From positions 62,001-126,000 of the forward strand of contig NZ_JAAXMS010000008.1 in the NCBI RefSeq assembly GCF_012290005.1: a stretch of DNA of 64,000 nucleotides, written 5' to 3'. Shown here piece after piece: positions 53 to 39,660 of the stretch. The stretch's first letter is position 1; each line of letters starts with the position of its first letter. This DNA comes from Crateriforma spongiae (GTDB taxonomy: Bacteria > Planctomycetota > Planctomycetia > Pirellulales > Pirellulaceae). Made by a program: the position numbers and the translations under genes. Under the pieces are notes generated by a model. The model was not told where the DNA came from and searched no databases. It saw only the letters and a program-made list of their open reading frames with translations.

Positions 53-1462
53 ATGAACATGAAGTTCTTTGCCAGGATCCTGCCGGCACTGGCCGTCTTT
101 GGCCTCGGTAGCCTGGCTTGCAGCGCGAACCATCCCGCCGCGCCCTCGGACTGGCAAACCTTTCTTGCCAACAGTCGCTCCGGATGCGGATGCAACACCG
201 GGCCGTCGGTGATGACCTACGGCCCAAACTATTCCCAGCCATCACCCTACGTCACGTCACCACACGTGGTGTCGCCGGGGCCAGGCTGTTCGACCGGCGA
301 TTCGTCGATCGGTGCCTATGGTGGCAGCATCACCGCCACGCCGGGCATGATCAGCGGCGGCGCGTCGGCCGGCGTCGGCCCCACGGTGACCGGATCTGCC
401 ATGGCCGGAAGCGTCATGACCGGGTCTGGGGCGTGCGGATCGGCCGGAGTCGGCGTCGGCGGACCATACGGTGGCGGTGTCTATGGCGGCGGGTATGGCG
501 GTTCCATCATCGCGGGCAACGCATATCCGACCGGCGGTTATGGTTACGGAGCCGCGTGCGCCCCGGCCCCCCAACCGATTTATCGCCCGCGGTTTTCGCT
601 GTCCGGCTTTTACGGCGGCTTTGAATTTTTGTGGCTTCGCGCCCACTTCGACCAAAACGTGGCAATGATCATCGACCCGCCGGTGGGCAACCGCCTGGTC
701 CCGTTTGATTACAGCTATGACTTTTCACCCCGCGTCTGGCTCGGATGGGAAAACTGCCGCGGCAATGGATTTCGCGCCACGTATTTCCGCTACGAGGACG
801 AAGCAGACATCGAGCAATTCACCGCCGCCGCCGGACAGGTTCCAGTTTACGTGGAAGTCTATGGTGCCGGCGGCAACTTGGCCCGCAACGCCTACGCCGA
901 CGCGATCGGCGAAACGTTGACGTCGTCACACCGCTTGGAACTGCAGTCGTTGGACTTGGAAGCGACACACCTGTTTGAATGGTGTGCGATGCGTGCACGC
1001 ATGGGCTTCGGTTTGCGATTGGCGGAGATGGAACAAAACCTTCACGCCCGCGTTTACCTGCCCGATGGCACGCTGGAAGAAATCGTCACCAACGATTTGT
1101 CGTTCCGCGGCGTCGGACCGACCGTTTCGATGATGTTCACACAACCGTTGTGGAAGTCACGATTCTCGCTTTACGGCAACTTGCGTGGTTCGCTGCTAAT
1201 GGCAGAAACCGAGCAGTACATCTACGAGATGAAAGGCGCTTACACGACCGAGTTGGTCGACATCGCCGAACAACGCGAAATCCTGACGAACTTGGAAATG
1301 GGCCTCGGCATCCAGTTCGGCCAATCGATTGGTCGCCGTGCAGGCATGTTCGTGCGTGCCGGGTATGAAACCCAAGTGTGGTTCGACGCTGGCGGACCGG
1401 TTGATTCGCACAGCACCATCGGATTGGACGGCATCACGCTGGGCGCCGGACTTAGCTTCTGA
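53..1462 (+). CDS. BBP7-family outer-membrane beta-barrel protein
   Basis: A 469-residue secreted protein. Residues 1-25 form a signal peptide (Lys, hydrophobic core, Ala-Cys-Ser-Ala). A Cys pair follows near residues 45-47. Residues about 75-165 are very rich in Gly, Ser and Ala. From about 180 onward alternating aromatic and polar strands suggest a beta-barrel, and the protein ends in Phe, as outer-membrane barrels usually do. The WLRAHFDQN-type stretch resembles the planctomycete BBP7 (DUF1551) family; that assignment is from memory of the family. A purine-rich GGAAGG lies just before the first ATG; a second in-frame ATG at 59 is also possible. It is probably monocistronic because a strong hairpin follows. 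Its role (porin or structural) is unknown. Confidence 0.7.
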   Translation: MNMKFFARILPALAVFGLGSLACSANHPAAPSDWQTFLANSRSGCGCNTGPSVMTYGPNYSQPSPYVTSPHVVSPGPGCSTGDSSIGAYGGSITATPGMISGGASAGVGPTVTGSAMAGSVMTGSGACGSAGVGVGGPYGGGVYGGGYGGSIIAGNAYPTGGYGYGAACAPAPQPIYRPRFSLSGFYGGFEFLWLRAHFDQNVAMIIDPPVGNRLVPFDYSYDFSPRVWLGWENCRGNGFRATYFRYEDEADIEQFTAAAGQVPVYVEVYGAGGNLARNAYADAIGETLTSSHRLELQSLDLEATHLFEWCAMRARMGFGLRLAEMEQNLHARVYLPDGTLEEIVTNDLSFRGVGPTVSMMFTQPLWKSRFSLYGNLRGSLLMAETEQYIYEMKGAYTTELVDIAEQREILTNLEMGLGIQFGQSIGRRAGMFVRAGYETQVWFDAGGPVDSHSTIGLDGITLGAGLSF

Positions 1463-1570: not shown

Positions 1571-3736
1571 CTACATTTGGGCAACGGCTTTTTCGGCGGG
1601 CTGATTCGCCGCTTGTTCGCACGTGGCGGCCAATTCGAACTGAACCGCCCAACGCCCATCAGCATCGCCGGTCACGATCCAGTGCGGCTGAACACAGACG
1701 CTTTGGTGAACCAGTTCGAAACCACCTTCGCTTAGGCTGACCGTCTCGATCGGGAAGGCCCAAATGCCGGATTCACGACCAATCGCCAAATCGACATCCA
1801 GCCCCAACCAGCGGTCGGACAACTTCAAACCGCGGACGTTTTTCAGGTCCAGCATTTCACCAAGTTGCCCCAGGCGATTGCCGTCAACATCGCTGAAATA
1901 CCGATCATCCGCACCGGCGGGCATCCCGGCGAAATTCAATTCGATTGCGAAGTGCAGCGGGCGTCCCGGCGGCAAGTTTTCCAGCAAGTACGTCACCTGC
2001 ATTCGGTCGCTGTTTTCCGACAGCGTCACCGCCTTGGTCATCGTGATCGGAATGCCCCAGGCGTTGCCGTCGCGACGCATTTGAATCTGAACGCGATCCG
2101 ATCCGCGTCGCAACTTGGCTTCGAATGGCAGTTCCACGAAATCCCCACGCTCGGTCGCTTCGCCACGCATGACGGCTTCCAACGTTGCGTCTTCGTCATA
2201 GAAGTGATCCATCAGACTCTTGCGAGCATATCGATCGTACTGCAAGCGTTTGTCCAAATCGGCTTGCTTGAAAACAACCCGATCATGAATGCTGGCGGCT
2301 TCATCGTCGCCGCTGGTGCTGGGGCCCGCCAAAACTTGACGGTGATAACTTTCGGGACGCCGCTGAAGCGTGGCCAATAGGTTGTGGCAGATGTCGCGGA
2401 CGTCCAACTCGTACATTCGCCCGCCGCGCCCCGGTGCAACCCAAGCACACAGTCGGTTGTTGCTCAGGCGTACTTCCTGTTGACCGTCAAAGTTGTAATC
2501 GGCCGCGTCGGCTTGAACGGCACCACCACCGACAATGCGATCCAATTCGTTGTCTGCCGCAATCAAGTGTTGGAAGATCGCATTGCGGAGGTGTGGCAGG
2601 TAAACACCGCCAAAAGCACCGTGCCAGTACGGGCAATTGCACTGGCCGCGATACAAGTCATCGCGGACGGTCGCCAATTCACCGCTGTCACGACCGGCGG
2701 CTTCGGCATCGGCCAAACGACCGCTGACGTGCATCATCCGCGAATACATCTCATTGGTTTCGTCGTACTTGACTTTAAAGTTTCGCCAGTAGCCACCACG
2801 AATGAATTGCTGAAGCGATTTCCAGTGCGGGTCATTCTCCATCTCGTGCTGCAGATCATGCAGCGTGTCCTGTGCGGCCACCGGCAGCGACCATTCGGTC
2901 ATTTCGCGATAGCTGCAATCGGGCAGATAAGCTCGACCGGCCGGCGGTGTGCTCTGAACCGCTTCCTGCAGCGTGACGGTGTGCAGCCAGTGCGAATTTT
3001 CGGTCAACGCGTCAAAGAAGGACCGCAACCAACCCCGGTCGTACACGTGGACCTTGGTATCGGGCCAAGTCCCAAACTTTTCGCCGTCATCGCCAAACGT
3101 CAGCACGGCACCCGGGTGACGTGCGGCCACTTCGCGGCAATAGTCGATGGTTTCGGACGGCGGCCGGAACGGGATCGTGTAACGCAGTCGTTCCGAACCC
3201 GGGAAGATTCGCAGCACACGCCCTTGGTCTTCGACCAAGAAGTAGCTGGTCAGTTCGTCATCGGCCAGTCCGGCCGCTTTGAAGTGATAGTCGTCCAGCA
3301 CGGTGTACTGAATACCGGCATCGACCACGTCGCTGGTCAGCGTCGATTCCCAGACTCGCTCGGGCGTCCACATCCCCATCGGCGTCGCGCCAAGATTCCG
3401 CTGCAGCCAGTGCGCGTAGGCCTGAATTTGGCCCACGCGGTCTCGCGACGGCAACATCGTCAGGATCGGTTCGTACTGGGGACCGCCGACGATTTCGACC
3501 CGCCCGGCTTCGACCAACAAACGCAAACGATCCAAGTACTCCGGATGATGCTCCGCCAACCACAACATCAACGGGCCGGATGTGTGCAGGGAAATGTTCA
3601 GCCGATCATAGGGCTCGAACACATCCAAAAACGGCAGGTAACTGTCCTGATACGCCTGTTCAAAGACGCCGTCAAAATTCCCGATCGGCTGGTGATTGTG
3701 CAGGACGAGGCAAAGAGATGCGTTCGGTGTCGACAT
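1571..3736 (-). CDS. GH57 4-alpha-glucanotransferase / alpha-amylase family enzyme
   Basis: A 721-residue glycoside hydrolase family 57 enzyme acting on alpha-1,4-glucans such as glycogen. From the ATG at 3736 the GH57 signature appears at once: HNHQP at residues 13-17. The likely nucleophile is Glu126 in WTPERVW and the likely acid/base is Asp216 or Asp217 in FGDDGEKFG; these are assigned by analogy with the Thermococcus litoralis enzyme. The C-terminal third (about 430-700) matches the beta-rich DUF1925/DUF1926 region of 4-alpha-glucanotransferases. The frame stays open 63 codons further upstream, but that extension lacks family similarity. No signal peptide is visible, so it is cytoplasmic. 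The nearby minus-strand galT-like gene and glgA point to glycogen turnover. Amylase versus transferase activity cannot be told from the sequence. Confidence 0.88.
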   Translation of the reverse strand: MSTPNASLCLVLHNHQPIGNFDGVFEQAYQDSYLPFLDVFEPYDRLNISLHTSGPLMLWLAEHHPEYLDRLRLLVEAGRVEIVGGPQYEPILTMLPSRDRVGQIQAYAHWLQRNLGATPMGMWTPERVWESTLTSDVVDAGIQYTVLDDYHFKAAGLADDELTSYFLVEDQGRVLRIFPGSERLRYTIPFRPPSETIDYCREVAARHPGAVLTFGDDGEKFGTWPDTKVHVYDRGWLRSFFDALTENSHWLHTVTLQEAVQSTPPAGRAYLPDCSYREMTEWSLPVAAQDTLHDLQHEMENDPHWKSLQQFIRGGYWRNFKVKYDETNEMYSRMMHVSGRLADAEAAGRDSGELATVRDDLYRGQCNCPYWHGAFGGVYLPHLRNAIFQHLIAADNELDRIVGGGAVQADAADYNFDGQQEVRLSNNRLCAWVAPGRGGRMYELDVRDICHNLLATLQRRPESYHRQVLAGPSTSGDDEAASIHDRVVFKQADLDKRLQYDRYARKSLMDHFYDEDATLEAVMRGEATERGDFVELPFEAKLRRGSDRVQIQMRRDGNAWGIPITMTKAVTLSENSDRMQVTYLLENLPPGRPLHFAIELNFAGMPAGADDRYFSDVDGNRLGQLGEMLDLKNVRGLKLSDRWLGLDVDLAIGRESGIWAFPIETVSLSEGGFELVHQSVCVQPHWIVTGDADGRWAVQFELAATCEQAANQPAEKAVAQM

Positions 3737-4304
3737 GGCGTCAGGCAAGCACGGGTTGGAACGGGCCGGATCAAAATGCCGACCAGAAGTTTCACGATGG
3801 ACGGATCTGGGATGAACAAAGTCACCGCAACAGAACGAACGAATTGTAGGGTCCCAGCCGGCTGTATCGAACGGTCCAAATGTGGAAATCGATCGGATGA
3901 GACGGGTTTTTCCGCTGTCCGACACGACGCATCCGTTACCGACACGACGATCTACTTAACCGGCAAAGACGAACATCGAAGCTATCGGCCGGTGAAGGGG
4001 GGAAAATTCAACCTTTTGCCCCGGACCGATGACGATCGTCCGTCGCTAAGACCCTGAATCGATCGCCGGTTCGATTTTTTGCCAGTCACGTTTTCGGTCG
4101 GCTGTCCGCCACAGCAGGCCGGTAATCGAACAACGCGAATTTCAGCGACCCGAACCGGACAAACACAGGGACGGACAGACAGTCGACTTCAAAAACGGCC
4201 GAAGACATGCACTCCGATTTTTCTGCGACACCTCTAAGAACCGCTAACCAGGCCTACCTAAGCCTCCCAAACCAGCGGGCTTTCATGGCCGATAGTGCGG
4301 CGGG
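3737..4304. other. Intergenic region upstream of the GH57 gene
   Basis: 568 bp between the end of galT and the start of the GH57 gene. Open frames here are short and show no family similarity. The only structure seen is a weak 6-bp inverted repeat with six Ts (4057-4080), which faces away from both genes. The region must carry the GH57 promoter unless galT reads through, but no convincing -35/-10 pair was found. Confidence 0.5.
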
Positions 4305-5516
4305 CTAGACCGACCGCAGGCTGTCGCGTTTGGCCAGACGCTGATAAACGCTGGCCGCTTCTTCGGGCAACATGGTGTTCATCATCGTGCCACAGCCCAG
4401 TTCCAAGCCGGCAATGAAACTGGTGCGGGGAATGATGTCCAACGCCCAGTGGAATGCTTCTTCGGCGCCATCCCAGTGGGGTGGGCGAGTGTGCAGCAGG
4501 TAGTTGTAAGCGATGCCGGGCCGCCACCGTTCCAGCCAGCTGGTGACACGCCGCGTCAGACGACCGACTTCCATCACCAACGCATCGCTCAAGTTTTCGA
4601 AACGGTCGGCATGCTGGGTGGTGGTGATCCGCACCTGCATCGCAAATGCACTGGCGAAGGGACAGTAGGCGACCAAGTGATCGGTGCGTGCAATCACACG
4701 CTCCATTGATTTCATTTCGCTGCGGATCATGTCGCACTGAAGACAGCATCCGGTCTTCGCGTAGTGCGTCATCTTACGCCGCAAGGTGCGTGCGGTTTCG
4801 GTAGGCACCTGATTGAAGGCGATCAGCTGGCTGTGGCTGTGGTGCAACGATGCGCCGGCTTGGCGGCCGACGTTCTTGAAAACCAACATGTACCGGATCG
4901 CCGGATCCGCCCGCCAAGCCAAGAACCGCTGCTTGAACGCTAAAAAGATCTGTCCGGCGTGCTCGGAATCCAGTTGGGTGATTGATTCGATGTGTCGCGG
5001 CGATTCGATGATGACTTCATGGCCACCGGCAATGGACACACCACAGGCAGGCCAACTGACATCCGCTGCGGGCAACAAGTGTCGAACCTGGACCGAACTT
5101 TGATGACGCCCAACCGCAGGGTATTTGTTCGGCACGACGCGCACGGCCCAATCCGCGGTGGGATCAGTATCCAACACATCACCATCCACCGGAGAATCCA
5201 GTGGACCGTCGATCCCCAAGTCAATGTCCGCCGCGGGGATCGAAAAAACAGACGGCGGTGTGGTCGATTCATTGCCCGCACAAAACGGGCACCCCGATGC
5301 ATCGGCTAGTTCGTGCGGACGCTCGACAAAATCACAGGGCCGGTTCTGTCGGTCCGGTGCGAACAGGACCCATTGTCCCGACAACGCATCAAATCGCGAA
5401 TGCGTGTCGACGCCACGAAAGGCGTAAGAGGTCGACGAAGAAGGGGGCACAGGAACGGCATCAACAACATCACCAACGGAAGTATCCAAAAGATCTGGTG
5501 ATTGTTGCCGGCCCAT
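4305..5516 (-). CDS. galT: Galactose-1-phosphate uridylyltransferase family protein
   Basis: A 403-residue protein of the HIT-superfamily GalT family, which exchanges UMP or NMP between hexose-1-phosphate and UDP-sugar. From the ATG at 5516 it shows the N-terminal WVLFAPDRQNRP stretch, a zinc-type Cys76-x-x-Cys79 (CPFC), and the active-site HSHSQ at residues 226-230, where His228 would carry the UMP. A GTG at 5525 gives a three-residue longer alternative; neither start has an obvious ribosome site. It lies between GH57 and glgA on the same strand, with 159 to 168 bp to glgA. The setting suggests supply or recycling of sugar nucleotides for glycogen. Bacterial relatives include ADP/UDP-glucose phosphorylase-type enzymes, so galactose specificity is not certain. 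Confidence 0.85.
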   Translation of the reverse strand: MGRQQSPDLLDTSVGDVVDAVPVPPSSSTSYAFRGVDTHSRFDALSGQWVLFAPDRQNRPCDFVERPHELADASGCPFCAGNESTTPPSVFSIPAADIDLGIDGPLDSPVDGDVLDTDPTADWAVRVVPNKYPAVGRHQSSVQVRHLLPAADVSWPACGVSIAGGHEVIIESPRHIESITQLDSEHAGQIFLAFKQRFLAWRADPAIRYMLVFKNVGRQAGASLHHSHSQLIAFNQVPTETARTLRRKMTHYAKTGCCLQCDMIRSEMKSMERVIARTDHLVAYCPFASAFAMQVRITTTQHADRFENLSDALVMEVGRLTRRVTSWLERWRPGIAYNYLLHTRPPHWDGAEEAFHWALDIIPRTSFIAGLELGCGTMMNTMLPEEAASVYQRLAKRDSLRSV

Positions 5517-5683
5517 GCCAAGCACCTCAATTAATTGCAGGTCCCCATTGTCTGTGCACCGCGACTGGGGGACTACGCCGCATCATTCCCCCCGCCGGAC
5601 CCCGATCGTATCACACAATCTCGCCGCGAAAACCTTAAAAAAACCCCATGAATTGTTGACAGACCGACCTGGCAATCCCGTTT

Positions 5684-7204
5684 TCACTGGCCTTTGCGGT
5701 TTAGGGAAATTAGGCGTTCGTAAAGCTCGACGTACCGGTCGGCACTCTTCCTCCAGGACCAATCCTGTTTCATCCCGGTCTCGACAATATTTTTCCAATT
5801 TTCTGGTTCGTGATAGCGCATGTGCAGCGCGCGTCCGATCGCCTGATCAAGCGCCCAGGGTTCAAACTCGCCGACATGAAAGCCCGTTGCGGTGCCATCG
5901 CGCAGCGTTGCTTCACTGGCATCGACCACCGTGTCGGCCAGTCCGCCGGTCGGCGTAACGATGGGAACCGTGCCATAACGCAGACTGTAAAGCTGATTCA
6001 AACCACATGGTTCATAGTGACTGGGCATCAAAAACAAATCCGAACCCGCTTCGATCCGGTGTGCCAATTCATTGCTGAACCCGATGTGCAGTGCAAAACG
6101 GCCGGGGTAAGCCGCGTGCAGTCGCTGCAGTTCGACTTCGATCGCCGGATCTCCGCTGCCCAAGACAATCCACTGGGTCGGTCGGTCTTCGGCCAAGTGT
6201 TGCTTCAACACCGGCAAGATCAGATCCCAACCTTTCTGATCGGCCAAGCGTCCGACCAAGCCGATCAGCGGCAGATCGCGGTCTTCGAACAGCCCGAACT
6301 GCTGCTGCAACGACCATTTGTTCTGCCACTTGCCTTCGGCCCAATCTTCGACGCCATAGTTGTGCGGAATCATCGGATCGGTCGTCGGTTCCCAGACACG
6401 ACCGTCGATGCCGTTGATGATTCCCGAAACACGATCGTCGATCCCACGCAGAACCTCATCCAACCCGCGACCATGCTCGGGCGTGCGAATCTCTTTCGCG
6501 TACCGGGGGCTGACCGTGGTCACAGCGTCGGCGGTCACGATCCCGGCTTTCATAAAATTCAGCCGCCCAAAGAATTCGAACGACTCGGGCTGGAACTGGG
6601 CCCAATCCAAACCGGTGAACGGATACGCGTCGGCGTCAAAGCTGCCTTGGTAGGCCAGATTGTGAATCGTAAAAACGGTGGCGGTGCGCGACGTCCAGGG
6701 CATCGGCTCATGGCCGGCGGAGCCTTGTCCCGCCCGCATCAACGCGGGAACCAACCCGGTTTGCCAGTCGTTGCAGTGCACCACATCCAACGACCAGCCG
6801 ATGCGAGAGAGTGCCGCGAGTGCCGCGCGGCAAAAGAACGCGAACCGTTCGGCGTTGTCCGGATAATCACCGGCCGCCGTTCCGTACAGAGATTCGCGGT
6901 CGAAATACTTGGGCTGGTCGATGAACCAGACCGGGACGTCGGCGCCAGCGATTCCCGATCCAGGCAACTGGCTTTTCAGCAGACGTCCCCCCACCAGCGA
7001 CTTTGGCCCCATCGGCAAGGCAAAGCTGATGTCGGTCGTTTCGATCGGCAATCCGCACTGACGGATGGATCGAAAAGCAGGCATCACGATCGCACAGCGG
7101 TGGCCTTTGGCGGCAACGCGGGAAGGCAGGGCACCACACACGTCGGCCAGACCGCCGGTCTTGGCAAACGGCACGGCTTCGGTGGTCAGGTAGACAATGT
7201 TCAA
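5684..7204 (-). CDS. glgA: Glycogen synthase (GT5)
   Basis: A 506-residue starch/glycogen synthase that transfers glucose from ADP- or UDP-glucose to a growing alpha-1,4-glucan. The N-terminal catalytic domain opens with MNIVYLTTEAVPFAKTGGL, whose KTGGL (15-19) binds the sugar nucleotide and glucan. The C-terminal domain has the HYEPCGLNQLYSLRYG and PTGGLADTV motifs typical of GlgA. Length is near the bacterial norm of about 480-500. The start is the ATG at 7204. It is first in a minus-strand row with galT and the GH57 gene, giving a compact glycogen synthesis and remodelling block; gaps over 150 bp leave open whether they share a transcript. Confidence 0.94.
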   Translation of the reverse strand: MNIVYLTTEAVPFAKTGGLADVCGALPSRVAAKGHRCAIVMPAFRSIRQCGLPIETTDISFALPMGPKSLVGGRLLKSQLPGSGIAGADVPVWFIDQPKYFDRESLYGTAAGDYPDNAERFAFFCRAALAALSRIGWSLDVVHCNDWQTGLVPALMRAGQGSAGHEPMPWTSRTATVFTIHNLAYQGSFDADAYPFTGLDWAQFQPESFEFFGRLNFMKAGIVTADAVTTVSPRYAKEIRTPEHGRGLDEVLRGIDDRVSGIINGIDGRVWEPTTDPMIPHNYGVEDWAEGKWQNKWSLQQQFGLFEDRDLPLIGLVGRLADQKGWDLILPVLKQHLAEDRPTQWIVLGSGDPAIEVELQRLHAAYPGRFALHIGFSNELAHRIEAGSDLFLMPSHYEPCGLNQLYSLRYGTVPIVTPTGGLADTVVDASEATLRDGTATGFHVGEFEPWALDQAIGRALHMRYHEPENWKNIVETGMKQDWSWRKSADRYVELYERLISLNRKGQ

Positions 7205-7607
7205 CTTGGATGTCCGTCAGTGATGTTGCGTCGGCGCCGCGTCGGCCCTAATCCTCTTGATCGACTCTGGGTCGAAAATACTTCCGTGACACTGATTTTA
7301 GGCTCCAGACGCCCATGCCCGACTGTCAGTGTGATCGGATGGGTCAAGCCAGAACACCGGCACCGGTTGTAACGACCGACCCTGCAGACAACATAGTCGC
7401 CAAAGTTTGCCGCCACCAACCGCGGAACACCTTGGAAATTGGCGACCCACGTCGCCGAAGCCTGGCGGTCGGAAGAACCGGCGGACCGACGCCCCGTCGC
7501 CAGGCAAGCTAAATTGACAGGACGTGACCGCCGACACTGCGAACCGTGTTCCGGCCGTCTCGGCGAATGTCCCCTTCCATCGCCCATCGAACGGTTGCCG
7601 ACTCGGA
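7205..7607. other. Divergent intergenic region between glgA and the pseudokinase gene
   Basis: About 400 bp between two divergent genes, so promoters in both directions are expected here. The pseudokinase frame is open from a GTG at 7524, so 7524-7607 could be coding. No operator-like dyad or clear promoter pair was found. Confidence 0.45.
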
Positions 7608-10151
7608 ATGCCGAATGATCTGACCCAGTTTTGGACCGACCGTGCCAGGCTGTACGCGCTGCGCAGCGGGTCCAAGGATGCGGACGCCGAACCGCTGGTC
7701 CGCCAGGTCCCCGATGGTCGCGTGCTGGCGGATGCCTTGGATCAACCCGATCGTTCGTTTGATCGAAAGACCCTGCTGCGACTGGCCCACACGGTCGCCC
7801 GGGGCTTACAAACCATCCACCGTTGGAATCGTCCCCATGGCGGAATCACTGCCCGCCGCGTGTGGATGACTTCTGATGGCCGGTTTGCATTGCTGGTCGA
7901 TGTCCGGTCGGACGATGACCTGTCGATGCCGGACCGTTCGGTCGATATTGGTTCGACTGCGGTCGACACGGCAGCGGCACCCACTGACGCTTTGCCGCGG
8001 GATCTAAGGGACGCGTCGGCCTCGCGAGATTTTCTGGAGCTCGGCCGTTTGATCGTCCGCCTCCGGTACCCCCAGTCGTGGCCCGGACTTGTCGACGGAC
8101 GCGACATCCCGGAAATCGCGAAAGCCGTCCGGCTTGGTGAAAAGGGCGATCCGCTGGACCGAATTGTCGCCCATTTGCTGGCACCCAATCCAGATGCACG
8201 ATTCACTTCCGCCGACGCTTTGGTTCAAGCGATTCGTGCCGCCGCCAAAACAAGTTCCGAAGGTTCCAGCGACGTAGCACCGAAGCCGCCAAAGACGGTC
8301 GCCCCATCGCCACAGGTGGTGCCGCAAACGGAAGCAACACCGATCTCGGCACCCGAAAGACCCGCCGTCGTCGATGCCATTCGCGATGAACCCGAACCGA
8401 CAAACCAAGATCAAGCGGCGCCGGTCGCTGTGGATCCAAAAGAGACGGTCATCCCGACGACCCGCCGGTCCCCCACATCCTCCACTCGTCGTCGCGGCCA
8501 ATCACGACGCCGATCACCAGTCCCGATTCTGTTGGGCATGTTGGCCATTCCACTGTTGTGCCTGTGCATCGTCCTGGTTTGGCAATCATCCCAGCCAGAT
8601 CCTGGCGACCGCTCGGCCGCACGTCCACGCGTTTCGCCGGATTTCGTTCCGCCGGTCATCAATCGTTCGACGGCACGATCCGGGAACAACTCCGATGCAA
8701 CACCTGGAAACGAAGGTGCAGATTCGGAATTGTTTGCACCACCGCGACCGACCGAAACCGCTTTCCGCTTGGATGGCCTGCCACCAGGACCGGGAATGTT
8801 GATCCATCTTCGCCCGGCCGATTGGATGTCCGACCCGGACGGCCAAGCGGTCATCAAGGCTTTGTCACCGGAATTGTCCGGTGCGGTGGACGATTTGGCT
8901 GCGCGCACCGGTCGTGCGGCGCAGGAAATTGCTTCGTTGACGATCGCGCTTCATCCAGGCGATTCCGGTCGCCCGGAAATGACTTGGGCGGTCGACTTGG
9001 CCACACCGGTGAACCGGCAAACTTGGATCGAGCAACTCGGACTTTCGCTGTCGATGACCGCGACAGGCAAGAAGATTTACAGCGGGGACGATCCTGATTC
9101 GGACGCCTATTACATCCCGGAACATGACGATGTGTCGATGTTGTCACAGTTCACCGTGGGTTCGGTCCCGATGGTCAGCGAAGTCGCGGAGATCGACGGA
9201 CTGGCGATCTCGTTGCCACGCAACCTTCAATCGGTGTGGCAACACTGCGATCAAACGCAGAGCCTGTCCGTCGTGTTGACGCCAAACTTCTTGTTCACCG
9301 ACGCACGTCAGTGGGTCCGTCGCGTTGCACCGTCAGGGCTGACGGAACTGGCACGCTGGATGGTGCCATCGGTTAGCGGCGTCGCGGTTACCATCGATCT
9401 GCGTGGTGACGACGTTTACTGGGTCACGCGTTGGTCGCCCGCCGGAGGCACGAACGAAGCGACTTTGCTGTCGCAGGTTCGTCGCCGAATGGATCAGTTA
9501 CCCGCAACCGCGGAAGACTTTTTGATTCGATCACAACCGGAAGTGTCGTGGAAGGCGCTGGCCATTCGGCTGCCACGCATGTGGGATTTTGTTTTGCGAC
9601 ACACTCGTTTTGGTTTGAAGGATCGACAGGCGGTGGCCGGCGGCTATCTTCCCAAGCACACGCTGGACCAGATCGTCCTGGGCAATTTACTGGCGCTACG
9701 CACCCCGGATTCGGTGCCCGCTATCGACACCGCTTCGCCACCGACGGAATCGCTTTCGCTGAGCGAGCTGCTACAGCGTCCGATGTCGATCTCTTTCGAC
9801 CAAGAGTCATTGGAGTCGGCGATCGATGTGATCCGAGAGGAATTTGCGCGGGATCTTCCTGCGGGGACGGATGCGCCGGTGATCGAAATCAAAGGTAACG
9901 ATCTACGGTTGATGGGCATCACCCAGAATCAACAGATTCGCGATTTCCAAATCGACCGTTTGCCGCTGGCCGACGTCCTGACACGGCTCGTGTTGTCAGC
10001 CAATCCGGATCGAACGGCGACCGGGCCGACCGATCCGAAACAGACGTTGATCTGGATCGCCACTTCGGATTCTCAAAAGATTTTGATCACGACACGGGAA
10101 TCAGCGGGGAATTACCAGCGTATTCCCGACCCAACGTTCGGCGATCTGTAG
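7608..10151 (+). CDS. Membrane pseudokinase with large extracytoplasmic domain
   Basis: About 847 residues from the ATG at 7608 (a GTG at 7524 would add 28). Residues about 1-210 resemble only the C-lobe of a Ser/Thr kinase. The catalytic-loop equivalent reads HGGITARRVW (residues 77-86) instead of HRDxKxxN, and the DFG position reads VDV. No glycine loop and no VAIK-type lysine precede it, so catalysis is unlikely. A Pro/Ala/Thr-rich linker and an Arg cluster (RRRGQSRRR) lead into one membrane helix at about 305-325. The remaining 520 residues would lie outside the cytoplasm and are not recognised. The Arg cluster before the helix supports an N-in orientation. It converges on the moaB-like gene with a 60-bp gap. 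A sensor or scaffold role is an inference. Confidence 0.7.
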   Translation: MPNDLTQFWTDRARLYALRSGSKDADAEPLVRQVPDGRVLADALDQPDRSFDRKTLLRLAHTVARGLQTIHRWNRPHGGITARRVWMTSDGRFALLVDVRSDDDLSMPDRSVDIGSTAVDTAAAPTDALPRDLRDASASRDFLELGRLIVRLRYPQSWPGLVDGRDIPEIAKAVRLGEKGDPLDRIVAHLLAPNPDARFTSADALVQAIRAAAKTSSEGSSDVAPKPPKTVAPSPQVVPQTEATPISAPERPAVVDAIRDEPEPTNQDQAAPVAVDPKETVIPTTRRSPTSSTRRRGQSRRRSPVPILLGMLAIPLLCLCIVLVWQSSQPDPGDRSAARPRVSPDFVPPVINRSTARSGNNSDATPGNEGADSELFAPPRPTETAFRLDGLPPGPGMLIHLRPADWMSDPDGQAVIKALSPELSGAVDDLAARTGRAAQEIASLTIALHPGDSGRPEMTWAVDLATPVNRQTWIEQLGLSLSMTATGKKIYSGDDPDSDAYYIPEHDDVSMLSQFTVGSVPMVSEVAEIDGLAISLPRNLQSVWQHCDQTQSLSVVLTPNFLFTDARQWVRRVAPSGLTELARWMVPSVSGVAVTIDLRGDDVYWVTRWSPAGGTNEATLLSQVRRRMDQLPATAEDFLIRSQPEVSWKALAIRLPRMWDFVLRHTRFGLKDRQAVAGGYLPKHTLDQIVLGNLLALRTPDSVPAIDTASPPTESLSLSELLQRPMSISFDQESLESAIDVIREEFARDLPAGTDAPVIEIKGNDLRLMGITQNQQIRDFQIDRLPLADVLTRLVLSANPDRTATGPTDPKQTLIWIATSDSQKILITTRESAGNYQRIPDPTFGDL

Positions 10152-10211
10152 ACGACTTCTCGGGGTGTCCGATGCGGCGTCGCCGTTTTGGATGCCGGCG
10201 TCTGCCATTGG

Positions 10212-10790
10212 TTACCGACGGGACGAAATGTCTTTGCGATCCGACTCGCTCTTGGCGTCATCCCAAACCAGTCCGACGGTGTGACGCAAAATCGGCAGAA
10301 TGCACTGCTGTACACCCGTTTGTACCGCGCCGGTTGACCCCGGCAAACAAAAGATCATTGTCCGTCCGATGCGGCCAGCCGTGGCGCGGCTGAGCATTGC
10401 CGAGGGGCCGATCTCGTCGATCGAGAGCCGACGAAAGTGCTCGCCAAAACCGGGCAATTCCGCGTCCAGTATTCGCTGAATTGCGTCGATCGTCTGGTCG
10501 CGTGCGGCCAATCCCGTCCCGCCAGTGGTGACCACCGCCTGGGCATCGCCTTGGGCGATGATCGCGTCTAACAATTCGATCAACTGTTGCGGTTCATCGC
10601 GAATCAATTCGCGTTGCACCAACTGATGGCCCGCTGATTTCAGCAAATCGACGATTCGATCCCCGCTGCGATCATTGTCGCGACTACGAGTGTCGCTCAG
10701 CGTGATGACCGCGACGCGAATCGGGCCATCGACCGGGACACAACCACAATTTTCGTCGGCCGACCGTTTTTTGTTACCGGACTCATTCAT
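10212..10790 (-). CDS. moaB: MoaB/MogA-family molybdenum cofactor biosynthesis protein
   Basis: A 192-residue protein of the MoCF family, which adenylylates molybdopterin or acts in that step. From the ATG at 10790 it shows LSDTRSRDNDRSG (about 31-43), TTGGTGLAARDQT (88-100) with the phosphate-binding GGTG, and LPGSTGAVQTG near the C-terminus. The N-terminal 22 residues are polar and extra relative to MoaB. A GTG at 10832 would add 14 unrelated residues. No other cofactor genes lie nearby. MoaB and MogA cannot be told apart on length and motifs alone. Confidence 0.88.
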   Translation of the reverse strand: MNESGNKKRSADENCGCVPVDGPIRVAVITLSDTRSRDNDRSGDRIVDLLKSAGHQLVQRELIRDEPQQLIELLDAIIAQGDAQAVVTTGGTGLAARDQTIDAIQRILDAELPGFGEHFRRLSIDEIGPSAMLSRATAGRIGRTMIFCLPGSTGAVQTGVQQCILPILRHTVGLVWDDAKSESDRKDISSRR

Positions 10791-11031
10791 TCGATTTTTC
10801 CCTACCAGTTGGTTTAAGCTGCGTGAACCCACCTAAGCCGATGCATCGGTACAGGTTTCCTGCACGGGGGACTCGGACGACCGGGTCGGGGAACTAGAAT
10901 CCGTGTTTGATCGGTCCATTGCCACCGATCAACTTCATGCACCTTGCCGGTCGGTTCAACCATGGGTTTTGTTGACGATCGGCTCATTCGAAGAACCGGG
11001 CGGTCTTGCCCAAGCACAGGAATCGAAACTT

Positions 11032-12366
11032 ATGAAAATCGCGATGATCGGCACCGGCTATGTGGGGCTGGTAACGGGGACCTGTTTCGCCGACAGCGGC
11101 AATGATGTGATCTGCGTCGACATCGACGAGGCAAAGATTCAGGGTCTTCGGGAAGGCAAAATTCCGATCTACGAACCGGGCCTGAGTGACTTGGTTCTGC
11201 GAAGCAGCGAAGAAGGCTTGCTGACATTCACCACTGATTTGGCGGCAGCGGTGCAAGCCAGCCGGATCGTCTATTTGGCCGTCGGTACGCCACCGGCAGC
11301 GGACGGCTCGGCCGACTTGACCGCGCTCAAAACGGTCGTCGATACCATGGCCCCGCATTTGACCGATGACGCCATCGTGGTCACCAAGAGCACCGTCCCG
11401 GTGGGCACCAACGAATATATCTTTCGGCGACTCAAGGAATTGCTGGGTCGCGAGGTCGATGTGGCCAGCAACCCCGAGTTCTTGAAAGAGGGTGCTGCGA
11501 TCGAAGACTTCATGAAACCCGATCGCGTCGTCGTTGGTGTGCGGCGGCCAGAGGTCGGCGAAGTCTTGCATGAACTGTACCGACCGTTCCTGCGAACCGA
11601 CAAACCGTTCCTGACGATGAGCCCCCAGTCGGCTGAACTGACCAAGTACGTCGCCAACGCATTGTTGTCGACCAAGATTTCATTCATCAACGAAATGGCC
11701 AATTTGTGCGAAAAGATGGGTGGCGACATCAACGATGTCCGACGCGGCATCGGCCACGACCAACGCATCGGATTTGCGTTTCTGTTCCCCGGTGTGGGCT
11801 ATGGCGGCAGCTGTTTCCCGAAAGACGTTCGCGCCTTGGCCAGCATGGCCCGCGACCACGGCTTGAATCCTCGCATCATGGATGCCGTCGATGAAGTCAA
11901 TTCGGAACAGAAGAAGGTTTTGAAAGACAAGATCGATCAACACTACGGTGGCAATCTGTCCGGAAAACGGGTCGCCGTTTGGGGTCTGGCATTCAAGCCG
12001 CGGACCGATGATATCCGCGAAGCTCCCGCACTTACCCTGCTAGATTACCTGCTGGAACAAGGTGCAACACCTCAAGTCCACGACCCCGAAGCATCCGAAA
12101 ACATTCGGGCGATCTATGGCGACAAACTGATCTATTGCGAATCGGCAATGGACGCGTTGAACGGTGCGGACGCGTTGGCGATCAACACCGAGTGGAAGAA
12201 TTACCACAACCCGAACTTTTCAGAGATGCGGACCCGCATGAACGGTCACGTCATCTTCGACGGCCGAAATTTGTACGAGCCTGACCAGATGGTCGAACAA
12301 GGTTTCACCTATCACAGCATCGGACGAACCGTCGGCGTCGCTGAAAGCGAACCGCTATCGGCATAA
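11032..12366 (+). CDS. ugd: UDP-glucose 6-dehydrogenase
   Basis: A 444-residue NAD-dependent sugar-nucleotide dehydrogenase that makes UDP-glucuronate. The ATG at 11032 is followed directly by the Rossmann motif GTGYVG (7-12). Other family marks are TKSTVPVGT (118-126), SNPEFLKEG (147-155) and the catalytic Cys261 in GGSCFPKD. The frame is open 43 codons further upstream without similarity, so the start at 11032 is favoured. The downstream epimerase is on the same strand 144 bp away, and together they suggest nucleotide-sugar supply for an envelope polysaccharide. GDP-mannose dehydrogenase is the main alternative; the overall pattern fits UDP-glucose better. Confidence 0.93.
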
Positions 12367-38661: not shown

Positions 38662-39660
38662 ATGACCGTCGAACCGTCGATCATCTTGTCGGGAACCGAT
38701 CCCGATCTGCCGACCAAATTGCCGTCGGGACTGCAGCGCTACACGGGCCTGAAAGAAATGGCGCGGGGCGGCAGTGCCATTCTCCGCAGCGGCTTTGACC
38801 GTATCGTCGGTCGTACCGTGGCCATCAAAACACTGCTGCCGGAAACCAAGAACAACCGCAAGGAACGGCGACGGTTCTTGCGAGAAGCCCGTGTGACCGC
38901 CCAACTGCAGCACCCCAACACCGTGCCCGTCTACGAGATCGGTAACGATCTGATGTACGGCATTTTCTTCGTAATGAAACGAATCTCGGGGGAAAACTTT
39001 TTCGAAATCCTGAAGCGAATCGCCCGCAAGGACGAAGCCACGATCAAAGCGTTCCCGTTGCGTCGGCGACTGGAGGTCGTCGCCGACACCTGCCAGGCGC
39101 TTGCCTATGCACACGCACGTGGCGTCATTCACCGTGACGTCAAACCGGAAAACATCTGGGTCGGAAACTTCGGCGAAGTCATCCTGCTGGACTGGGGGAC
39201 CGCCAAGGTCTGGGGCCACGCCGACGACAACGAACCGATCCGGCAAAGCACACTGGCGCAGAAACCCGACCAAGCAGACCAACAACTAACCACCCTGACC
39301 GGTGGCGGCCAGCGTCCCGGTACGCCGCTGTACATGTCACCGGAGCAGGTGTCCGGTAATCGTGGCATTGATGAACGATCGGACATCTTCAGCGTCGGCG
39401 TGGTCCTTTACGAAATGCTGGCCCTGCGGGAACCTTTCCGAGGCCGAAACATTGACGAAACATTCAACAACATTCGCAGCAAGGACGTTCCCCCGCCCAG
39501 CGAAACCGCGCCGGACCGTCAGATTCCGGCCTTGGCGGATCAGGTCGTCATGAAAGCTATCCAAAAGCGACCGGGCGACCGATATCAATCGATGCGGGAT
39601 TTGATCGCAGCGATCGGCGAAATCCGCGACCAGGAAATCCACGAGCCCCAGGACCCATAG
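38662..39660 (+). CDS. Soluble serine/threonine protein kinase
   Basis: A 332-residue Hanks-type kinase without membrane helix. A degenerate glycine loop (MARGGSA, 33-39) is followed by VAIK with Lys56, HRDVKPEN at 158-165, DWG at 177-179 in place of DFG, and MSPE at 225-228 for APE. The catalytic Lys, Asp and Asn are all present, so it should be active. The DWG variant is common among planctomycete kinases. About 30 extra residues follow DWG before the activation segment ends. It ends 4 bp before asnB, so they are likely cotranscribed. Its substrate is unknown. Confidence 0.88.
   Translation: MTVEPSIILSGTDPDLPTKLPSGLQRYTGLKEMARGGSAILRSGFDRIVGRTVAIKTLLPETKNNRKERRRFLREARVTAQLQHPNTVPVYEIGNDLMYGIFFVMKRISGENFFEILKRIARKDEATIKAFPLRRRLEVVADTCQALAYAHARGVIHRDVKPENIWVGNFGEVILLDWGTAKVWGHADDNEPIRQSTLAQKPDQADQQLTTLTGGGQRPGTPLYMSPEQVSGNRGIDERSDIFSVGVVLYEMLALREPFRGRNIDETFNNIRSKDVPPPSETAPDRQIPALADQVVMKAIQKRPGDRYQSMRDLIAAIGEIRDQEIHEPQDP

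Follow-up and report, generated by a model that had tools for sequence, protein, structure and literature searches.

We analysed a stretch of 64,000 nucleotides of the Crateriforma spongiae genome (contig NZ_JAAXMS010000008.1, positions 62,001 to 126,000; hereafter the window) in which one gene encodes a membrane protein with a degenerate kinase domain and a large outer part. A preliminary description, made from the letters of the DNA, had read its product as a transmembrane pseudokinase. The open reading frame (ORF) spans 7524..10151 on the forward strand and encodes 875 residues from GTG 7524, an in-frame alternative start, or 847 residues from ATG 7608. Because the ATG coincides in the alignment with the segment that opens the relatives (MPNDLTQFW, compared with MSVAIPEFW in one example), ATG 7608 is probably the start codon of the gene. 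Residues are numbered here in the 875-residue frame, and numbers in the 847-residue frame are lower by 28. The gene and its parts are as follows.

7608..10151, forward strand: whole gene, comprising pseudokinase C-lobe, linker, membrane helix, TP0453-like domain and N0/STN-type domain (ORF, with the start set by alignment)
7695..8261, forward strand: kinase C-lobe, residues 58-246 (family alignment, fold match, C-lobe profile, codon comparison)
7836..7865, forward strand: degenerate catalytic loop HGGITARRVW, residues 105-114 (family alignment)
7896..7904, forward strand: VDV at the place of DFG, residues 125-127 (register from the PknB alignment of the family profile)
8028..8030, forward strand: F-helix aspartate D169, kept in 35/35 aligned members (family alignment)
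8262..8525, forward strand: disordered, basic cytoplasmic linker, residues 247-334 (model confidence, codon comparison)
8526..8582, forward strand: membrane helix, residues 335-353 (hydropathy 2.86 over 19 residues; helix 341-354 in the model)
8763..9692, forward strand: TP0453-like outer (periplasmic) domain, residues 414-723 (outer-part model, fold matches, codon comparison)
9750..10103, forward strand: secretin N0/STN-type domain, residues 743-860 (fold matches and profile alignment with a partner protein)

The kinase C-lobe that the preliminary description had recognised is difficult to see with the window protein alone. Its Pfam kinase match is below threshold (E 0.046), a PDB sequence search returned no match, and single-protein searches of Pfam, NCBIfam and PDB sequences gave no informative domain; a match to the MADS6 antiphage kinase (NCBIfam E 3e-7, 29 bits against a cut-off of 460) was taken as the shared kinase C-lobe. 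A C-lobe model of the family, built without the window protein and its sister, nonetheless scores the window protein at 62.7 bits. In the AlphaFold2 model, residues 35-246 match BRAF, PknB, PknA and other kinases with VIA Z scores of 15.1-16.4 over 144-187 residues, and the C-lobe superposes on kinase structures with a root-mean-square deviation (rmsd) of 2.5-4.7 in the 50 rows shown. The preliminary description had made its reading depend on a kinase fold in residues 1-210, and such a fold was found. The relatives scanned with Pfam carry Pkinase in 4/6 cases (E 3.8e-22 to 6e-13), the remaining two being kinase-free.

The catalytic motifs are lost, and they are lost across the family. Both replacements read at first sight, HGGITARRVW for HRDxKxxN and VDV for DFG, were seen in the family alignment, with HGGITARR at residues 105-112 occupying the eight places of HRDxKxxN. 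A profile of the 35 aligned members with a kinase part matches Mycobacterium tuberculosis PknB (E 3.8e-46) without gaps at the three motifs, which supplies the register for counting. The DFG aspartate is kept in 0/35 members, the beta-3 lysine in 2/35, the HRD aspartate in 10/35 and the asparagine of HRDxKxxN in 13/35; the APE glutamate is kept in 31/35. HRD has become HGx in 28/35, and the DFG glycine has become proline in 26/35. At the four catalytic places of the window protein stand A, G, R and V, with G107 at the HRD aspartate and V125 at the DFG aspartate, the A at the beta-3 lysine being loosely aligned, as the N-lobe is gone. The window protein therefore retains a Hanks-type C-lobe fold and has neither of the two aspartates, of HRD and DFG, expected of an active Hanks-type kinase; the N-lobe with its beta-3 lysine is absent from it and from its sister (L031). 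Given the loss of the DFG aspartate in every member, of the beta-3 lysine in all but two and of the HRD aspartate in most, the whole family is, as judged from its motifs, one of pseudokinases, and the dead kinase first proposed for a single protein turns out to be a family property.

Absence of the N-lobe, which had also been noted, holds for the window's genus; most relatives have kept a degenerate one. Among the loci examined, a deletion of the N-terminal ~110 residues (an extra domain plus the N-lobe) occurs only in this genus. A C-lobe is present at 80/106 loci with the outer domain, and 79 of these have an N-terminal domain of ~75 residues (FW...LTxYQA...GPFxYGDY); the sole exception is L031, which like the window protein also has no N-lobe. 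The N-lobe is recognisable, if degenerate, in 63 of the 79 loci, and the other 16 keep the N-terminal domain with an N-lobe too decayed for the profile. The same FW...YQ domain precedes three other kinases of the source genome (C2:495746, C2:79904 and C5:647308), and the idea that it is exclusive to the pseudokinase family was rejected. Those three share the order of N-terminal domain and kinase with the family and, unlike the window protein, have both the N-terminal domain and catalytic motifs, namely the lysine, HRD and the aspartate of D[VM]G as judged by eye; a strict motif script, which found Lys, HRD and DFG in 19/30 kinase matches fetched from the 59 in the genome, failed all three. Because the same domain stands before kinases with motifs kept, the family probably derives from Ser/Thr kinases with an FW...YQ N-terminal domain.

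Beyond the C-lobe and linker lies a single membrane helix. Since the arginine-rich segment RRRGQSRRR precedes it, the N terminus is probably inside, which would place the kinase part in the cytoplasm and the remainder in the periplasm. The ~520 residues that had been estimated beyond the helix are 522 by count, a short linker followed by the outer part up to residue 875. The AlphaFold2 model of the whole protein, built from a 38-row alignment, has a mean predicted local distance difference test score (pLDDT) of 71.8, with values below 50 at residues 1-52, 129-156, 247-343 and 354-401. Comparison with the sister species (L031; second genome of the genus, one-contig assembly, same length and architecture, 91.5% identical) gave ratios of nonsynonymous to synonymous substitution (dN/dS; Nei-Gojobori, one species pair, few substitutions) of 0.26 for the C-lobe, 0.80 for the linker (residues 247-335), 0.00 for the helix, 0.10 for the TP0453-like region (residues 404-730) and 0.13 for the N0 region. 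The protein is under purifying selection, and the contrast between 0.26 and 0.80 in the adjoining linker suggests that the C-lobe is still constrained, though less than the outer part.

The preliminary description had found no recognised domain in the outer part. This stands for sequence libraries, as neither NCBIfam nor Pfam gave a match above cut-off in the outer parts of 38 members; it does not stand for folds, which were revealed by the structure prediction and fold search that the same description had suggested. The outer part was modelled separately (residues 396-875; mean pLDDT 87.8, predicted template modelling score 0.68), since kinases crowded out the outer part when the whole model was used for the fold search. 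Foldseek against the PDB returned six matches at E <=0.001, all of them chains of TP0453 from Treponema pallidum (best E 1.4e-9, probability 1.00), and the next entry stood at E 0.013. VIA-align of residues 414-723 with four TP0453 entries gave Z scores of 10.2-11.1 over 210-228 residues at rmsd 4.6-5.3, the best row having Z 11.1 over 222 residues at rmsd 5.0, and all other rows for that region had Z <=2.9. Because identity to TP0453 is 8-10% and no sequence match was obtained (a 38-sequence profile against PDB sequences gave four matches up to E 10, TP0453 not among them), the predicted relation is one of fold. Residues 414-723 would accordingly share the fold of TP0453 (PDB 3k8g, 3k8h, 3k8i and 3k8j); TP0453 itself is a lipoprotein that resides in the outer membrane's inner leaflet, whereas the domain of the window protein sits between the inner-membrane helix and the N0-type domain. 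A viral fold library gave no match to the outer part at E <=0.001, and a DprA_WH match at residues 436-471, below cut-off and in 1/38 members, was taken as chance. The first part of the outer domain also recurs in other proteins of family f21 (L092, L094 and L098), two of which (L092 and L094) have a Pfam BlaR1-type M56 peptidase N-terminal of that part and DUF1559 C-terminal of it.

The last part of the protein, residues 743-860, contains a conserved GITQNQ motif (residues 798-803). Its fold scores are middling: Mu gp44 stands at Z 7.5, a core protein of the Dot/Icm system at 7.3, the secretin domain of EscC at 7.2 and the PilQ N0 domain at 6.6, with further tail-hub proteins at 6.0-6.9. We read it as a putative N0/STN-type domain, which may share the fold of the corresponding domains in the secretins EscC and PilQ (Pfam PF07660), because hhalign joins this region to the last N0-like domain of a partner protein at a probability of 95.3% and E 2.3e-8.

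This partner is encoded next to the family's gene in most of the relatives examined. Its parts are a zinc ribbon (CxxC...CPxC), a linker that includes a membrane segment, and STN/secretin-N-like repeats; its last (second) N0-N1 part has PilQ as its best match among solved structures (E 0.004), and of four partners scanned with PF07660 one passes (L061; 31.3 against 28.4 bits), one is just below (L050), one is weak (L045) and one has no match (L048). By BLAST cluster the zinc-ribbon/STN gene lies directly downstream at 27/40 loci, and by profile it lies downstream on the same strand at 29/40; in the BLAST-cluster count L054 was measured against the wrong ORF and L042 and L062 overlap on account of stop-to-stop frames, and all three are same-strand by profile. 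Partner-profile matches occur in 60/60 genomes searched, although other proteins are picked up too, through the STN repeats of the profile. Secretins carry a C-terminal pore domain, unlike the window protein and the five partners scanned, in none of which PF00263 was found. In the source genome the partner gene is unlinked (contig 6, L192:6669-8906, reverse strand) with its zinc ribbon intact. The same genome has 8 secretin-domain matches, the last of them weak.

A tree of the outer domain (94 rows, quick method, supported by Shimodaira-Hasegawa-like approximate likelihood ratio tests only) places the sister species in a supported clade of 37 rows; every row there is unlinked and scores 0-45 bits for the N-lobe. 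Of the order's other 41 rows, 36 are linked; L051 ends at a contig end and is uninformative on linkage. An N-lobe score below 50 bits is found in 37/42 unlinked against 7/36 linked rows, scores of 0 in L148, L149, L162, L174 and L175 coming from frames cut at a contig start. A tie between loss of linkage and decay of the N-lobe was considered and found unsupported, as a single clade accounts for 37 of the 42 unlinked rows, hence one event on the tree, and a dependence cannot be claimed; among three independent pairs, an average of 0.0 changed in the same direction and 0.2 in the opposite one.

The family is conserved among planctomycetes of the environment, and its outer part is widespread in the order. 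The single protein finds a match in 52/60 genomes (its own included), and the outer-domain profile in 183/246 genomes of the order, mostly once per genome and up to four times, five of the 183 having weak matches only (E 8e-8 to 2e-4). A draw across the phylum gave 20/294, four in the window's own family (f1, Pirellulaceae) and 16 in family f21 of the same class. Among 51 loci, members occur in Rhodopirellula, Rubripirellula, Roseiconus, Stieleria and Blastopirellula (Pirellulaceae, order Pirellulales, in the NCBI taxonomy). A class-wide search with the kinase profile matched 196/198 genomes, ordinary kinases included, and was not used for distribution.

What varies is the cytoplasmic module. 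The kinase part is present in 35/38 aligned rows. Family f21 has a zinc ribbon N-terminal of the outer domain at 14/16 loci and a kinase at none; the two loci of family f7 that were examined (L054 and L058) are kinase-free, and the frames of the 29 listed f7 matches, at 521-690 residues, are too short for a kinase. L048 shows a weak trace of the N-terminal domain without a kinase, and seven further kinase-free loci are cut by contig starts and uninformative. Because the cytoplasmic module may be a kinase, a zinc ribbon or nothing, the outer part appears from these comparisons to be the constant core of the family and the pseudokinase an exchangeable module.

We propose, with roughly even confidence, that the window protein is an inner-membrane envelope scaffold whose dead kinase acts as a cytoplasmic docking module, not as an enzyme. 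It would be a single-pass scaffold anchored by its helix. Most likely the Hanks-type C-lobe, devoid of every part of the usual ATP site, would offer a docking surface in the cytoplasm, a role suggested by analogy with EssB/YukC and MviN (see below). In the periplasm the N0-type domain would, again most likely, form a complex with the N0-N1 repeats that the zinc-ribbon membrane protein carries, perhaps also with a secretin, and the TP0453-like domain may touch lipid or membrane. The preliminary description had offered a signalling scaffold or a ligand sensor rather than an enzyme; this fits in outline, and the evidence points more specifically to an envelope scaffold with an outer core and an exchangeable pseudokinase. 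A more elaborate and quite tentative version would credit the Pirellulales with an envelope machine not described before, built from two proteins of the inner membrane, of which one bears a pseudokinase and the other a zinc ribbon on the cytoplasmic side. In this machine a periplasmic ring or stalk of N0 and N0-N1 domains would carry the TP0453-like, membrane-binding domain and would either move lipids or plug into a secretin. Within the window's genus, only a bare C-lobe docking block would be left of the pseudokinase.

Several observations weigh against the proposed scaffold. The fold match of the N0-type domain is middling (Z <8) and cannot by itself separate N0 from the tail hubs of phages and contractile injection systems, which score equally (Z 6.0-7.5), and the Pfam STN model (PF07660) is reached by 0/38 outer parts. 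Linkage to the partner is missing from the source genome, as it is from every one of the 37 rows in the clade around its genus. Kinase-free relatives show, finally, that the pseudokinase is dispensable to the family. They also favour a different account, possible but doubtful in our view, in which the periplasmic part works alone and the C-lobe is a decaying remnant in the course of being lost, just as the kinase is missing from the f7 loci examined and from f21, where a zinc ribbon is found. The deletion of the N-lobe and N-terminal domain in the window's genus would suit such decay, as would the low N-lobe scores throughout the 37-row clade (L148, L174 and L175 there being cut by contig starts). 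Yet the C-lobe has a dN/dS threefold below that of the adjoining linker (in that one species pair, with few substitutions), has kept its F-helix aspartate and fold core, and is still recognisable by the family model, all of which argues against a mere remnant.

An unlikely alternative gives the protein a sensory task: the TP0453-like domain would bind lipid or the outer membrane, and a partner docked on the pseudokinase in the cytoplasm, such as an active kinase, would receive the signal. The fold of the outer domain is suggestive here, and the source genome (6.9 Mb) could furnish kinases, having 59 protein-kinase matches, some genes being matched twice. Against this, the likeness to TP0453 is of fold only, and the long disordered linkers lower the odds of a signal passing directly through the helix. 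That the protein is an active atypical kinase or ATP-binding module despite its lost motifs is very improbable; its C-lobe has the fold and some relatives are less degraded at the HRD aspartate and beta-3 lysine, but the window protein has no N-lobe, beta-3 lysine, or HRD or DFG aspartate, and the last of these is gone in 35/35 members. An error in the gene model or assembly, with a frameshift hiding the N-lobe, has next to no chance of being correct. It would explain why the protein (847 or 875 residues) is shorter than relatives with a full kinase (947-1279 residues), but no N-lobe remnant was found in the six frames of 5001-12000 and the second genome of the genus has the same architecture, on which grounds it was rejected.

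The near neighbours of the pseudokinase gene are genes for GH57, a galT-like protein, glgA, MoCF_biosynth and UDP-glucose dehydrogenase, seen without a search aimed at type VII genes. The GH57 amylase, galT-like and glgA genes lie at 1571-7204 on the reverse strand of the window. glgA is a divergent neighbour of the pseudokinase gene at 21/91 loci compared (L134 and L033 being the same place), all in a Rhodopirellula-like clade; this glycogen link was noted and given no weight in the interpretation. Elsewhere in the window, a gene at 53-1462 (forward strand) encodes a probable outer-membrane protein matching Pfam Legionella_OMP (PF05150; E 6.9e-16), and a further protein kinase gene, clearly over the Pfam cut-off, lies at 38662-39660 (forward strand).

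Bacterial pseudokinases are little studied, and we found no description of this family in the literature searched. A search for planctomycetes and pseudokinases turned up only SelO-like kinases and chlamydial pangenomics, judged from the listing. A 2025 review of bacterial pseudokinases names seven families, and the string 'Planctomyc' is absent from its main text (PMC12599244). A survey of planctomycete kinases reserves the label functional for domains that have the catalytic Lys-Asp-Asp, and words starting with inactive, pseudo or degenerate are absent from its main text (PMC11032199); by that criterion the present family would fall outside the survey's functional set. The family, present in most of the order's sampled genomes, couples a dead kinase with envelope-machinery folds, and it offers a case of a kinase replaced by a zinc ribbon. 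Its members form a natural series of kinase-fold reduction, from a full degenerate fold through a decayed N-lobe and a C-lobe only to none, and a TP0453-like fold, familiar from an outer-membrane lipoprotein of a spirochaete, is now placed in another phylum.

Among described pseudokinases, those of the GLW type resemble the family in that HRD is replaced, the beta-3 lysine is replaced in a leucine-rich strand, and a membrane helix follows the kinase (PMC12599244); several family members have V-L-L-x-F-L at this strand. GLW itself, however, takes the place of HRD in 0/35 members, against HGG in the window protein and the HGx of most others, and GLW pseudokinases are mainly proteobacterial, unlike the family (PMC12599244). 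EssB/YukC of type VII secretion is, like the window protein, a single membrane-spanning pseudokinase protein degraded in all three catalytic motifs, and it is described as a recruiter of the secretion apparatus on dimerisation (PMC12599244); the window protein differs from it in having lost the N-lobe, in the TP0453-like and N0 folds of its outer part, and in phylum. MviN, of the mycobacterial ActPs3 family, is a peptidoglycan-synthesis protein with a carbohydrate-binding domain, in which it differs from the window protein; its tail is phosphorylated by PknB, and its pseudokinase domain recruits an inhibitor (PMC12599244). It nevertheless resembles what we propose for the window protein, a membrane protein in which the pseudokinase would act as a platform for recruitment and not as an enzyme.

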